This document shows, one piece after another, positions 24,044 through 58,522 of a stretch of 59,223 nucleotides of DNA (the first letter of the stretch is position 1; each line of letters begins with the position of its first letter). A program made the translations under genes and the position numbers. The notes beneath the pieces are model-generated. The model was given only the letters and a program-made list of their open reading frames with translations, was not told the origin of the DNA and did not search any database. Origin of the DNA: Akkermansiaceae bacterium (GTDB taxonomy: Bacteria > Verrucomicrobiota > Verrucomicrobiia > Verrucomicrobiales > Akkermansiaceae); NCBI GenBank assembly GCA_022510805.1, contig JAFLSS010000006.1:1-59223 (forward strand), read 5' to 3'.

Positions 24044-24853
24044 TTATTCGGCCGTGTCCGGCGCGGGTGAAAGCTGCCGCTCGACCATGGCGTAGGCGTT
24101 GTGGTTGTGGATGGATTCGAAGTTCTCCGCCTCGACGCGGTACCAGCTGAAAGCGCTGTGCCGCTCTGTCGCCACGGCAACGTTGCGCACGAGGTCCTCC
24201 ACAAAGACGGGGTGCTCGTAGGCGTGATCCGTCACATACTTCTCATCCGGCCGCTTGAGCAGGCTGTACACCTGGCAGCTGCCGCAGGCTTCTATCATGT
24301 CGATGAGATCCTCGATCCACACGGGCGCGCCGGAGAAGCGCACGGAGTAGGTGACCACGCCGCGCTGGTTGTGCGCGCTGTGCTCGCTCATGGCTTTGGA
24401 GCAGGGGCAGAGCGTGGTGATGGGTACTTTGATGGTGAGGGTAAAGGCGCTTGGCTTGTCGCGCTCGGCATCAATGACAAAGCGGACATCATAATCCATC
24501 ATCCCCTCGCGCTGGGTCACCGGCGCTTTTTTGAGGCGGAAAAAGGGGAAGTCGATCTCCACGTGGGCGCGCTGGGCTGAGAGCTTGCTGAGCAAGCGGT
24601 CCGGCAGGCGCACGGCGGAGTGGACATCCAGGTAGCGGTTGTGCTCTTGCATGGCCTCAATGAAGCGGCTCATGTGGGTGCCCTTGTACTGCTGCGGCAG
24701 ATCCACCATGAGGGCGATGCGCGCCACGGTGGATTGCGTGCGGTGCTCCTTGTCGCGCACGATGATGGGGTAGCGAATGTCGCGCACGCCGACGCGGTCG
24801 ATGGAGATGTGGCGCGTGTCGTGCTCGCTTTGGGTGTCGCGTAGCTCCTTCAT
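24044..24853 (-). CDS. folE2: GTP cyclohydrolase FolE2
   Basis: FolE2 (type IB GTP cyclohydrolase) converts GTP to 7,8-dihydroneopterin triphosphate for folate and some modified tRNA bases, using metals other than zinc. The 269-residue protein carries family motifs 'DRVGVRDIRYPIIVRD', 'GTHMSRFIEAMQEH', the metal-site cysteine region 'ITTLCPCSKAMSEHSAHNQR' and 'RHSAFSWYRVEAENFESIHN'. It stands alone; the next folate function in the window is the FolB domain at about 49.6-50 kb. Confidence 0.96.
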   Translation of the reverse strand: MKELRDTQSEHDTRHISIDRVGVRDIRYPIIVRDKEHRTQSTVARIALMVDLPQQYKGTHMSRFIEAMQEHNRYLDVHSAVRLPDRLLSKLSAQRAHVEIDFPFFRLKKAPVTQREGMMDYDVRFVIDAERDKPSAFTLTIKVPITTLCPCSKAMSEHSAHNQRGVVTYSVRFSGAPVWIEDLIDMIEACGSCQVYSLLKRPDEKYVTDHAYEHPVFVEDLVRNVAVATERHSAFSWYRVEAENFESIHNHNAYAMVERQLSPAPDTAE

Positions 24854-49558: not shown

Positions 49559-50554
49559 TCAGCGGCGGCAGTGGGCGGCCGCTGAGACAGATGCCGTGTT
49601 GGGGAGGATGAATTTGTGCAGCTCGACACAGGCTTCTGCGGCTCCCCACTCCTGCACGCAATGGGCGGCAAGCTTGTGTGCCAGCGTTTCCAGCAGGCAG
49701 GTGGGCTCTGCCTGCGCGAGGGCGATGAGCCGCTGCGAGAGTGCATCGTAATCAATGGTGCGTGAGAGCTCCTCCTGCATGTCGCCAAAGGATGCCGGCG
49801 GGGTGATGCGGATAGTCGCCTCCACGCGCTGCGGCGTGGCGCGCTCCTCCTCCGGCACGCCCAGGCAGCACTCAAAGCTGAGGCGGTGCAGGCAGAGGCT
49901 ATCCCTCGGCGGCAGGGGGGCGGGCGCCGGGGTGCAGCGCTGCATGAGCTGCCGGAGCATGCCCAAGTGCGGCACCACGAGATCCGGCGCTGCCTCGTGC
50001 AGCTGGGCGGCGTTGTTGTAGCCGGTGAGCACGCCGATGCCCAACACTCCGGCGGCATGGGCGGCGTGCATATCATGCTGCATATCGCCAATAAAAGCTG
50101 TCTCTTCAGCCCGCAGGCCGTGCTGCTGCAGGAGGCGGTGGATATGGGCCTCTTTGTTGAGGATGCCAGTGTGGATGCCCTCGAAGAAGTCGTAGAGTCC
50201 CAGCTCTTGCGCTTGGGAGATGAAGGCTTTGGAGTCCATGCTGCTCAGGATAAAGCAGCGGATGCCGCAGGCGCGGCAGTACTCCAGAAACTCGCGGGCA
50301 TGCGGCAGCACTGTCACGCGGCTTTGCGGCTTGTCCAGCACGCGCCGGTAGTGGGCTTCGATCTCCTCAAGCGGGACACCGGGTGTTTTCCACGCGTAGT
50401 AGGCCGGGTAGGGCAGTTGAAACTCCGCGCGGAAGCTCGCGGTGTCCAGCGGCGGCAGGCCATAGTGTGTCAGCACATAGTTGGTGCACTCGATGGTGAG
50501 GGTCAGGTCATCACACAGGGTGCCGGACCAGTCAAAAAGAATATTGCGGAACAT
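49559..50554 (-). CDS. HAD-family hydrolase fused to dihydroneopterin aldolase (FolB)
   Basis: The 331-residue protein has two parts. Residues 1-205 are a Gph-like HAD domain: motif I 'LFDWSGTLCDD', motif II 'FILSSMDSKAF', motif III Lys in 'GILNKEAH', motif IV 'FIGDMQHDMHAAHAAG'. Position D+2 of motif I is Ser instead of Asp, so full phosphatase chemistry is uncertain. Residues about 215-331 are a FolB domain: 'GVPEEERATPQ', 'TIDYDALSQRLI', 'CLLETLAHKLA' and 'CVELHKF'. The catalytic Glu, Tyr and Lys are all present. FolB converts 7,8-dihydroneopterin to 6-hydroxymethyl-dihydropterin. A HAD domain on the same chain could remove phosphate from dihydroneopterin phosphate, which is inference. Third gene of the nadB operon, 23 nt after the barrel protein gene. 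Confidence 0.88.
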   Translation of the reverse strand: MFRNILFDWSGTLCDDLTLTIECTNYVLTHYGLPPLDTASFRAEFQLPYPAYYAWKTPGVPLEEIEAHYRRVLDKPQSRVTVLPHAREFLEYCRACGIRCFILSSMDSKAFISQAQELGLYDFFEGIHTGILNKEAHIHRLLQQHGLRAEETAFIGDMQHDMHAAHAAGVLGIGVLTGYNNAAQLHEAAPDLVVPHLGMLRQLMQRCTPAPAPLPPRDSLCLHRLSFECCLGVPEEERATPQRVEATIRITPPASFGDMQEELSRTIDYDALSQRLIALAQAEPTCLLETLAHKLAAHCVQEWGAAEACVELHKFILPNTASVSAAAHCRR

Positions 50555-51636: not shown

Positions 51637-53235
51637 TTAGCCGTTGTGCAGGATGGTGGGGTGGGGGTGGCTCTGCTTGTCCGGCGCGTCGAGGGTGTAG
51701 TGCAGGCCGCGGGATTCTTGGCGGCGGATGGCGCAGTCGATGATGAGGGAGGCGGTGAGGGCGAGGTTGCGCAGGTCGAGGATTTCGGGGGTGACGCGGT
51801 AGCCCCAGTAGTATTCCTGGATTTCGCGGTTGATGTTGCGCAGGCGTGTTGCAGCGCGCTGCAGGCGGTGATTGGTGCGCACGATGCTGACATAATCTGT
51901 CATGGTGCGGCGCACCTCATCCCAGCAGTGGTAGAGGATGGCCAGGTCATCTTGCGGCACGCGGTCGCCATGCCACCATTCGGGGATGGGGTATGACTCC
52001 GGCGCGTGCGCGAGCGGCAGGCGCTTGAGCATGCAGGAGAGTGCGCGCTTGGTGATGACCACGCACTCCAGCAGGGAGTTGCTGGCCAGGCGGTTGGCGC
52101 CGTGAAGCCCGGTGCAGCCGCTCTCTCCGGCCACAAAGAGCCCGCGCAGGGAGCTCTGGCCGTTCGTATCCGTCTTCACCCCGCCGCATTGGTAGTGGGC
52201 AGAGGGGACGATGGGAATCATATCCACCTCGGCGTCGATGCCGTAGGACTTGCAGGTCTCGTAAATGTAGGGGAAGCGCTCCGCCATGAATCCCTTGGGC
52301 TTGTGGCGCATGTCGAGATACATGCAGGGGTGCCCTGTGTGCAGGATTTCGCTGTTGATGGCTCGCGCCACGATATCGCGCGGGGCGAGGCTCTTGCGCG
52401 GGTCGTATTTGTGCATGAATTCCTGCCCATCCGGGCCTTTCAGGATACCGCCCTCGCCGCGCACCGCCTCGGAGATGAGGAAGGTGAGCCCCTCACGATC
52501 TGTGCTCTTGGGGTTGTAGAAGGTGGTGGGGTGGAACTGCACAAACTCCATGTTGGAGATGTGAGCCCCCGCGCGCCAGGCCATGGCGATGCCATCTCCC
52601 GTGGCGGTGGTCGGGTTGGTGGTGTACATGTAGACCCGCCCGGTGCCACCCGTGGCGAGCAGCACGCGGTCGCTGCGGAAAATCTCCACCTCACCGCTGG
52701 CGGGGTCGAGCACGTAGGCCCCCAGCACGCGGTCTTCTGTCACGCTGCCCAGCTTGGCCGTGGTGATGAGGTCGATGGCGATGCGGTGGTCCAGCAGGGT
52801 GATGTTGGGGTGGCGCATGGCGCACTCCAGCAGCTTGGTGCTGATCTCCAGCCCCGTGGTATCCTTGGCGTGCAGAATGCGGCGCTTGCCGTGGCCGCCC
52901 TCGCGCCCCAGCTCAAACTCGCCATCCTTTTCCTGGTCGAAGTCCACCCCCCAAGCCAGCAGCTCGCGGATGGCCTCCGGCGCTTCTGTCACAATCGTGC
53001 GCACGGCCTCTTCATCGCACAGGCCGGCCCCGGCGTCCAATGTATCGGCAATGTGCTCCTCAAAGCTGTCATTCTTATCTGTCACCGCCGCAATGCCGCC
53101 CTGCGCCTTGGCTGAGCTCGACTCCAGCGGGTCGCTCTTGCAAAGCACGATCACCCGCCCATGCTCGGCCGCCCTCAGCGCAAAGCTCAGCCCGGCCACT
53201 CCGCTACCAATGACAAGAAAGTCTGTTGTAATCAT
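51637..53235 (-). CDS. nadB: L-aspartate oxidase
   Basis: NadB oxidises aspartate to iminoaspartate for quinolinate and NAD synthesis. The 532-residue flavoprotein has the FAD-binding 'VIGSGVAGLSFALRAAE', 'SSAKAQGGIAAVTDKND', 'LATGGTGRVYMYTTNPTTAT', 'VPSAHYQCGGVKTDTNGQSS' and 'SGCTGLHGANRLASNSLLEC'. The length is normal. nadA and nadC are not in the window. First gene of the minus-strand nadB operon. Confidence 0.97.
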   Translation of the reverse strand: MITTDFLVIGSGVAGLSFALRAAEHGRVIVLCKSDPLESSSAKAQGGIAAVTDKNDSFEEHIADTLDAGAGLCDEEAVRTIVTEAPEAIRELLAWGVDFDQEKDGEFELGREGGHGKRRILHAKDTTGLEISTKLLECAMRHPNITLLDHRIAIDLITTAKLGSVTEDRVLGAYVLDPASGEVEIFRSDRVLLATGGTGRVYMYTTNPTTATGDGIAMAWRAGAHISNMEFVQFHPTTFYNPKSTDREGLTFLISEAVRGEGGILKGPDGQEFMHKYDPRKSLAPRDIVARAINSEILHTGHPCMYLDMRHKPKGFMAERFPYIYETCKSYGIDAEVDMIPIVPSAHYQCGGVKTDTNGQSSLRGLFVAGESGCTGLHGANRLASNSLLECVVITKRALSCMLKRLPLAHAPESYPIPEWWHGDRVPQDDLAILYHCWDEVRRTMTDYVSIVRTNHRLQRAATRLRNINREIQEYYWGYRVTPEILDLRNLALTASLIIDCAIRRQESRGLHYTLDAPDKQSHPHPTILHNG

Positions 53236-56209: not shown

Positions 56210-58159
56210 TTAGTCCTGCGCGGGGGTGTCCGGGTAGATGAGCTCCGCCGGGGCAGGGGTGATGGACTTGATCGTCATCTTCACCTGCTCACCGCCGATC
56301 TCAAGCGGGAGGCGCAGAGTGTCGCCCACCTTGTGACCCAGCAGACGCGCACCCAGCTTGGAACTGTAGGCGATCACGCGGTTCTCCGGATCCGAATCCC
56401 AAGCGCCCAAGATGGTGTAGACCACTTTTTTCCCGGTCTCAGTGGCAAAGGTAACCTGAGTCCCCATGCCTGTTTCCTCACATGTGGCAGTGCGGAAATC
56501 GGTGGGCTGAGCCTGGGCGAGCAGGCGGGAGAGCTCCTCCGAGCGGCGCATGAGCACCTGGCGCGTGGCTTTGGCATCTTGGTAGCCGCCGTTCTCACGC
56601 AGGTCACCCTCAGCGCGGGTGATCTCAAGATCATGCTTATTCTTGGGAATCTTCACATTCACCAGCTCCTCATACTCCGCCTTGCGAGCCGCAAAAGAGC
56701 GGAGCGATACATAGAGAGTCTGGCGCACTCTGGGCGCGTTGCGGGTGAGCGCGATGTCCTGCAGGCCGGGGTGGACTTTCATCATGTTTGCCAGCAGGAA
56801 ATTGCGATCCAGATCCGGCAGCATGGACGAATCATAGAGCGCCTTGGCAAAGGGACGCGCCTCCGGCATGGTGAGCCCGGACACCAGATCCGGCGCCAGC
56901 TCCTTATCCTCGAGCAGGAGATTGCGCAGGCGCAGCGCGCGGTTGGGCGCGCCGTCTGCACTATCGCGCTCAATCGCGCTGATGATCGCAGAGCCGAGCG
57001 GCATCTTGGCGTGATCCAAAATATCCTTGGCCACCTGGTGGCGCTCCTTGCAGATCCAGATCAACACGCTGGGCTGCAGAGTCTGGCGGGAGATGCCGTT
57101 GAGCACCTCCTTAAACAGCTCTTCCTTGCTGCCGTGGGAGATGATGAAAAGCGCCGCGGATGAGGTGACACTCGAGCCGCCGTAGAGGAACAGGTGTGTC
57201 ACATACTCCTGCCATGACTCCGGGTAGGCCTCCATGACCGCAGAGTAGACCTGCTGCTGGCGCGAGGGTGTGAGCCCTGCGATGTATTTGACCAGCTCTT
57301 CAGCCGGGATGCTGCTCAACTTGTTGGCCAGAGTGGTGAGCCCGCTCTCGCCGGCCTCACTCGGCTGGGCTTCGTGCCCGCTCTCGCCGGCTTTATTGGC
57401 GGCAGCCAGGGCGAGAATCTCATCGCGGATGATGATCAGCTCCAGCACGTGCTGCGGCTCCATGTGGTCGCGCACAATATCGCGCTCCATGGTCGCAATC
57501 AACTCGGCTGTGAGAGCCTCTTCCCCGCGCAGCGCCTCATCGAGGTGCGCTTGGTCGAGAATGCGTACACAGGTCTCCAGCGAGGTGGCGCTCTTGTAAT
57601 CCTCCAGCAGAGCTTCCGCAGCGCTGTTCGCCTGGCGCAGGACAATGGCCTCACCGCGCTTGGTGGGCATGCGGAACAGGGGGGACTGGCTCATGGCCGT
57701 GCGGGCTTTCTCCCACCAGGCTTTCCACTGGTCGGCGGGGATGACACGCCCGGAGAGGAAGCTCTCCATATTCTCGGGAGTCATGGGCAGCACTTCGTTG
57801 ATGCCCTCGCGAAGCGAAAGATTGTGCTCCATCACAAAAGTGATAAATGAGAGCATGGTCTCTTTGTCCTCTGCCTGCTTGCGGCAGCCCTGCGGGTCAT
57901 CATAGCAGGTGATGAGGAAATGCCCCTCAGGAATGGGGGTGAGCTGATTGTAAACAAGCTTCAACCCCAGCTGCATACCAGCCTTTTTTTCGAAATTGAT
58001 CTTGACAATTTGCTGCTTGTTCAGATTCCAATCAACCACCTTGCCGACACCCCATACTTGGTGCTGGACATACTTGCCCGGTGAGAATTTATTCAGACGA
58101 TTTGCAATGTTTTCAGGAAGCTTGCCTGCATTGACGAATTTGACGAGATCTCCATGCAT
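56210..58159 (-). CDS. GreA-type transcription factor with a long N-terminal extension
   Basis: A 649-residue protein. The C-terminal 160 residues match GreA: the coiled coil 'ITRAEGDLRENGGYQDAKAT' retains the tip acids (D and E of 'GDLREN'), followed by 'GMGTQVTFATETGKKVVYTI' and 'SSKLGARLLGHKVGDTLRLP'. GreA triggers transcript cleavage in the RNA polymerase secondary channel. The first 490 residues are a large helical region; near residue 25 'GKYVQHQVWGVGKVVDWN' looks like a Tudor/CarD-like strand pattern. Chlamydiae have a GreA of about 715 residues with a similar extension. The start may instead be the ATG at 58216. It is divergent from rpsL. Confidence 0.85.
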   Translation of the reverse strand: MHGDLVKFVNAGKLPENIANRLNKFSPGKYVQHQVWGVGKVVDWNLNKQQIVKINFEKKAGMQLGLKLVYNQLTPIPEGHFLITCYDDPQGCRKQAEDKETMLSFITFVMEHNLSLREGINEVLPMTPENMESFLSGRVIPADQWKAWWEKARTAMSQSPLFRMPTKRGEAIVLRQANSAAEALLEDYKSATSLETCVRILDQAHLDEALRGEEALTAELIATMERDIVRDHMEPQHVLELIIIRDEILALAAANKAGESGHEAQPSEAGESGLTTLANKLSSIPAEELVKYIAGLTPSRQQQVYSAVMEAYPESWQEYVTHLFLYGGSSVTSSAALFIISHGSKEELFKEVLNGISRQTLQPSVLIWICKERHQVAKDILDHAKMPLGSAIISAIERDSADGAPNRALRLRNLLLEDKELAPDLVSGLTMPEARPFAKALYDSSMLPDLDRNFLLANMMKVHPGLQDIALTRNAPRVRQTLYVSLRSFAARKAEYEELVNVKIPKNKHDLEITRAEGDLRENGGYQDAKATRQVLMRRSEELSRLLAQAQPTDFRTATCEETGMGTQVTFATETGKKVVYTILGAWDSDPENRVIAYSSKLGARLLGHKVGDTLRLPLEIGGEQVKMTIKSITPAPAELIYPDTPAQD

Positions 58160-58522
58160 ACAGGAGCCAATGATACCACAGCTGATCTCAAGGTCAACCC
58201 CAATGTGTGAATTCATGGGAATGAATTTGTAGAAAAATGACAAAAGATGACATGTTGAGATATCACCACACGCGCTCGTGCGCGCGAGAGGCCGCAGGGA
58301 GCACCACCTCAAATATAGAAAAATTACAAAATTACGCAGAAAAGGCTTGCCAAACGAAAAAGATTGATTAAAATACTTGCGCCGTTCTCCGCGCTTAACT
58401 GCGCGTAGTAGCGAAATTTTTATCGGGTCCGCCGCCGGAAAAACGGCAAATTTCCCCTGGTGATGGGAGGTTTGCACGATGATGGCAAGGCCCTGAAACT
58501 AAAAAACAAGAAGAAGGATAAC
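58160..58522. other. Divergent control region between the GreA-like gene and rpsL
   Basis: This 363-bp AT-rich gap contains no gene. It carries the rpsL promoter (plus strand) and about 140 nt of rpsL leader. An in-frame ATG at 58216 could extend the GreA-like gene into it. Confidence 0.7.
58348..58375 (+). promoter_or_regulatory. Promoter for rpsL-rpsG
   Basis: TTGCCA at 58348-58353 and TAAAAT at 58370-58375, spacer 16 nt. It would drive the ribosomal protein str operon, with a leader of about 140 nt before rpsL. Confidence 0.55.

Follow-up and report, generated by a model that had tools for sequence, protein, structure and literature searches.

A HAD-FolB fusion protein

The window, i.e., the whole stretch of 59,223 nucleotides which was analyzed, encodes on its minus strand a protein of 331 aa in which an N-terminal HAD domain is joined to FolB, dihydroneopterin aldolase (Table 1). 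FolE2, the source of dihydroneopterin triphosphate (DHNTP), is encoded in the same window, not adjacent to the fusion gene. An ORF of 344 aa sits between nadB and the HAD-FolB gene. The three genes share one strand with gaps of about 23 nt, and an operon is possible; the 344 aa ORF is without a Pfam or NCBIfam match. A separate ORF of 755 aa has C-terminal GreA/GreB domains preceded by a long N-terminal part for which a tudor-like match is weak at most.

Table 1. Positions in the window of the fusion gene, its domains and motifs, and of other genes mentioned in the text.
Feature	Position	Strand	Evidence
FolE2 (GTP cyclohydrolase IB)	24044..24853	(-)	PF02649, E 2.5e-92
HAD-FolB fusion protein, 331 aa	49559..50554	(-)	single open frame (ATG at 50554, stop at 49559); Pfam
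HAD domain, residues 1-205, phosphoglycolate-phosphatase-like fold	49940..50554	(-)	Pfam HAD_2; nearest solved fold 2ah5, E 4.5e-15
HAD motif I DWSGT, residues 8-12 (nucleophile Asp8; Ser10 replaces acid/base Asp)	50519..50533	(-)	DWSGT in 125/125 orthologues; DxDGT in 12/12 paralogues
HAD motif III, Lys134	50153..50155	(-)	invariant in 125 orthologues
HAD motif IV GDMxHD, residues 156-161	50072..50089	(-)	invariant in 125 orthologues
Linker, residues 206-217, low model confidence	49904..49939	(-)	pLDDT <50 at 209-216
FolB domain, residues 218-331 (catalytic E237, Y269, K314)	49562..49903	(-)	Pfam FolB; 1nbu alignment; invariant in 14 fusions
ORF of 344 aa	50578..51612	(-)	
nadB	51637..53235	(-)	
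ORF of 755 aa, C-terminal GreA/GreB domains	56210..58477	(-)	

The frame is uninterrupted from ATG to stop, as the original prediction had read it, and no frameshift is seen in loci of the same genus. Pfam detects HAD_2 at residues 5-174 (E 1e-21; 78 bits, cut-off 23.8) and FolB at residues 222-318 (E 1.3e-15; 58.3 bits, gathering cut-off 31.8), i.e., Pfam membership in the FolB family is met. An AlphaFold2 model calculated from an alignment of 14 fusions shows both domains well folded (mean pLDDT 87) and joined by a linker of low confidence at residues 209-216. The best solved match of the HAD half in Foldseek is 2ah5, a phosphatase-like HAD. Pfam, model and Foldseek together place D8, S104, K134 and D157/D161 on a Rossmannoid core, and membership in the HAD superfamily is met.

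The HAD motifs claimed in the original prediction are present; they comprise the nucleophile D8, T12, S104, K134 and G156-D157-M-x-H160-D161. What it overlooked is Ser10. In HAD phosphatases a second Asp of motif I is the general acid/base which deprotonates water (PMC8069645). At this position the window protein and all of its 125 orthologues examined have Ser, and the canonical signature DxDxT/V is not met by any of them; all 12 next-best HADs examined within the order possess DxDGT. GDMxHD, D16, N25 and K134 are invariant in the 125 orthologous HADs. The invariance of the nucleophilic Asp, the Lys and GDxxxD is as expected of a working HAD. As nucleophile and metal ligands never vary, one expects an active enzyme which uses another acid/base, although activity data do not exist, and the chemistry could also be altered or the enzyme weakened. 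Inferred candidates for acid/base are D16 and H160, both invariant. The equivalog models for phosphoglycolate phosphatase are not met, with 60 bits against a cut-off of 225 for NF009695 and 35 bits against 180 for TIGR01449.

In the FolB half E237, Y269 and K314 align with the catalytic Glu, Tyr and Lys of the Mycobacterium tuberculosis FolB (1nbu), in agreement with what had been predicted, and are invariant in the 14 fusions. Thereby the residue criterion for a dihydroneopterin aldolase is met. The FolB half is nevertheless divergent, because neither NCBIfam FolB model reaches its curated cut-off: the equivalog TIGR00525 scores 36.2 bits (cut-off 72.15) and TIGR00526 42 bits (cut-off 45).

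Conservation and linkage of HAD and FolB

Within the genus 57 genomes have a FolB match, and in each of them it falls inside a single open frame no shorter than 326 aa. Reading through 15 of these loci, that of the window among them, showed HAD plus FolB. In the order draw described below, HAD and FolB matches are 27-48 nt apart on one strand in 22 genomes of the genus. A frameshift or an assembly artefact as the source of the fusion is ruled out by this conservation across the genus. One genome of the genus, G041, has two FolB matches in frames of 333 aa (G041:C2:123039 and G041:C6:30131), a duplication or a mixed assembly.

Four genomes of the genus remained without a match, G104 and G117 in the order draw and G027 and G047 in a first draw. 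All four keep FolE2 and FolK. The surveyed stretch of the G104 chromosome contains a 40-kb block of N (C1, 1,736,001-1,776,000; L253-L255). When the 14 kb surrounding the G052 fusion were compared with the readable 140 kb of G104, no match was obtained; FolE2, FolK and PTPS of these two genomes are at similar positions. Due to the block of N the apparent absence from G104 cannot be read as a loss, and that from G117, G027 and G047 should perhaps likewise not be used as such. A switch to a PTPS which bypasses FolB was considered for the genomes without the fusion and rejected, as their full-length PTPS matches are of the QueD type (CxxPHGH).

To evaluate linkage, a HAD profile and FolB were run against 152 genomes drawn evenly from the order. 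A score gap separates the orthologous HADs, at 200-370 bits, from the next paralogues, none of which exceeds 80 bits. Both orthologous HAD and FolB are present in 98 of the 152 genomes, and in 85 of these 98 the HAD precedes FolB on the same strand at a distance of no more than 2 kb. The original prediction asked whether the HAD domain is conserved. The fusion is general in the genus, and outside of it the HAD is either fused to FolB or directly upstream in 63 of 77 genomes. The control behaves differently: of the 32 next-best HAD paralogues located in FolB-containing genomes, 31 do not share a contig with FolB, and the remaining one is 1 Mb from it. One genome of the order has the HAD without FolB; 46 have FolB without an orthologous HAD, and there other phosphatases must carry out the step. 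In five loci from such FolB-only genomes no obvious phosphatase was recognized beside FolB when the translations of neighboring frames were read by eye. A contig scan for the HAD yielded at least 80 loci; among the matches listed all named ones are Verrucomicrobiota.

The exception is family f3: in 11 of its 12 genomes the HAD is not linked to FolB. In its loci L074-L076, L094 and L097 the orthologous HAD is located away from FolB; in L074 it carries a Nudix domain. In family f8, relatives from the same class, the orthologous HAD stands alone, and no FolB was found on the fetched stretches (L202-L206). In L202 and L204 it adjoins a LOG-like gene and lies opposite a long ORF which by eye resembles a homocysteine methyltransferase/MTHFR fusion.

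The Nudix domain of the relatives

Many orthologous HADs carry a C-terminal Nudix domain (PF00293, E 3.7e-20) with an intact Nudix box; Pfam and alignment agree that the criterion GX5EX7REUXEEXGU is met. In one clade, represented by L070 (G093) and L090 (G090), HAD, Nudix and FolB follow each other within a single ORF of 502 aa. These two ORFs are the strongest evidence for fusion in the data set. In G137, G140 and G153 HAD and FolB are in open frames of the same length, 499-502 aa, and these are probably of the triple type as well. The 125 distinct HADs comprise 56 of HAD-Nudix type and 24 single HADs, both groups having FolB on the fetched stretch as well, 17 HAD-FolB fusions, 2 HAD-Nudix-FolB chains and 26 without FolB on the stretch. 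These loci were partly chosen for adjacency; the unbiased figure for linkage is that of the 152 genomes. On a HAD tree the label HAD-FolB requires at least nine changes, of which at least four are forced by well-supported branches. Thus, fusion (or fission) occurred repeatedly, even though some branches are long and their placement is unsure.

A close relative of this Nudix domain apart from the HAD was not found in 97 genomes. In sequence it is closer to NudI than to NudB, its nearest solved relative is NudI, and the NudB equivalog NF006961 is not met (27 bits, cut-off 103). Its assignment to DHNTP consequently rests on linkage. The identity of the extra domain as FolK was considered and rejected: a single-sequence model of E. 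coli FolK gave no match, and the domain is a Nudix domain.

A proposed role in folate biosynthesis

In E. coli and L. lactis it is established that a Nudix enzyme removes pyrophosphate from DHNTP (PMC5526541, PMC1971073). The last phosphate of the resulting dihydroneopterin (DHN) monophosphate is ascribed to a 'non-specific phosphatase' without a named dedicated gene (PMC1971073, PMC6451014), and no report of such a gene was found in the open-licence literature searched. In the genome under study FolE2 is present and FolE was not found in a genome search; therefore, the FolB substrate here derives from FolE2. A separate folB, for which the original prediction proposed to look, does not exist, i.e., the fusion is the sole FolB. 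FolK is present in one copy on another contig, PTPS in one copy of the QueD type. Five Nudix proteins are encoded, and no close orthologue of the HAD-attached Nudix domain of the relatives was found. The two dephosphorylation steps ahead of FolB are without an assigned gene in this genome.

We propose that the HAD is a DHN monophosphate phosphatase. We consider this the best explanation and a probable one, for which comparative genomics gives good support, with the reservation that no activity has been demonstrated and the substrate is inferred from comparative genomics. The original prediction had named the HAD partner as a candidate for this step. Of the conditions which it set as refuting, a frameshift and a lack of the fusion in related genomes do not apply. 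Fusion, linkage and the presence on the same HAD of a Nudix domain which would fill the other step speak in its favor, as do the set of FolE2, FolK and a single FolB without FolE and the invariant nucleophile, Lys and GDxxxD; hydrolysis of DHN monophosphate itself remains an inference from linkage. Against it stand the Ser of motif I, the lack of a neighboring FolB at the HAD in families f3 (11 of 12 genomes) and f8, the 46 FolB genomes without this HAD, and the closer relation of the Nudix domain to NudI than to NudB. The fusion protein would then be a bifunctional enzyme of folate biosynthesis. Its HAD domain would remove the phosphate from 7,8-dihydroneopterin 3'-monophosphate, probably with Asp8 phosphorylated transiently in the manner usual for HADs, D157/D161 binding Mg, and a residue other than a second Asp as acid/base. 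DHN would be passed to the attached FolB, by a physical channelling which is inferred, and be cleaved to 6-hydroxymethyl-7,8-dihydropterin and glycolaldehyde. In the relatives the Nudix domain of the same chain would first take pyrophosphate off DHNTP, the FolE2 product; in this genome an unrelated enzyme or one of the five other Nudix proteins would have to take over that step. The HAD-Nudix-FolB chain matches three consecutive reactions, DHNTP to DHN monophosphate (Nudix), DHN monophosphate to DHN (HAD) and DHN to hydroxymethyldihydropterin (FolB). Substrates and order of the reactions are deduced from the linkage and were not determined biochemically.

Other explanations must be weighed. 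The HAD could have a broad or house-cleaning phosphatase function, or it could be a weakened module of regulatory or structural use, its link to FolB being without catalytic meaning in the folate pathway. The missing second Asp of motif I and the 46 genomes of the order in which FolB occurs without this HAD are compatible with such a role. Yet none of the other catalytic motifs varies in the 125 sequences, the fusion is repeated, the linkage is strong and specific to FolB, and the HAD is also linked to a Nudix domain which fits the preceding step; we regard a house-cleaning or merely structural function as unlikely. It is also conceivable that a HAD without an attached Nudix domain, as in the window, removes not just one phosphate but converts DHN triphosphate entirely to DHN. 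Akkermansia-type fusions indeed lack the Nudix domain, and the genome yielded no close orthologue of it. The five other Nudix proteins could perform the first step, however, and HADs of this type usually act on monophosphates, which leaves very little room for this proposal.

A different division of labor would have the FolB half cleave DHN monophosphate directly and release glycolaldehyde phosphate, which the HAD then clears. The motif DWSGT recalls phosphonatases, which have DWAGT and act on phosphonoacetaldehyde. The HAD resembles phosphoglycolate phosphatases, whose substrate, like glycolaldehyde phosphate, is a small C2 phosphate. Further, an annotation as DHN-monophosphate aldolase exists for Pyrococcus PF1278 (PMC5041015). 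Against direct cleavage, the catalytic residues of the FolB half are those of ordinary DHN aldolases, the standalone FolBs of the order, even those without an orthologous HAD, share the motifs of the fused FolB, and a conserved cap lysine as in phosphonatase is not visible in the alignments. We consider direct cleavage quite improbable. Returning to the HAD as a DHN monophosphate phosphatase, a wider generalization can be formulated to which we would give an even chance: a DxS subfamily of HADs throughout Verrucomicrobiota may be dedicated to DHN monophosphate, operate with a non-canonical acid/base, and form one-chain or operon HAD-Nudix-FolB assemblies that carry the FolE2 product through three successive steps of folate biosynthesis.

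A phosphatase which is repeatedly fused to, or placed beside, the next enzyme provides a concrete gene to assay in the phylum to which the gut symbiont Akkermansia belongs. In the HAD-Nudix-FolB chain two poorly assigned folate steps would be united in one protein, and the DxS motif would test how a HAD phosphatase works without the general acid/base Asp. No earlier report of a FolB fusion with a phosphatase or a Nudix domain was found in the open-licence literature searched. Known domains are present in a combination unreported there, with an unusual HAD motif.

With the phosphoglycolate phosphatase-like HADs of subfamily IA (2ah5, NF009695) the HAD half shares the fold and motifs II-IV; along its full length it is about 24% identical to 2ah5. 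It differs by the Ser in place of the second motif I Asp in all members of the group, by the GDMxHD signature and by scores far below the equivalog cut-offs. The FolB half has the domain (PF02152) and the Glu/Tyr/Lys residues of dihydroneopterin aldolases, yet bears an N-terminal HAD and remains under the NCBIfam FolB cut-offs. The Nudix domain of the relatives has the Nudix box and the presumed reaction in common with the DHNTP pyrophosphatases FolQ and NudB; in contrast to these, it is fused to a HAD and has NudI, not NudB, as nearest solved relative, and the window protein is without it. The step proposed for the HAD is the one attributed to the 'non-specific phosphatase', except that here a specific candidate gene is put forward, whereas none is named in those accounts (PMC1971073, PMC6451014). 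Fusions of folate-pathway enzymes are common, e.g., FolK-FolB of Bifidobacterium longum (PMC1971073).
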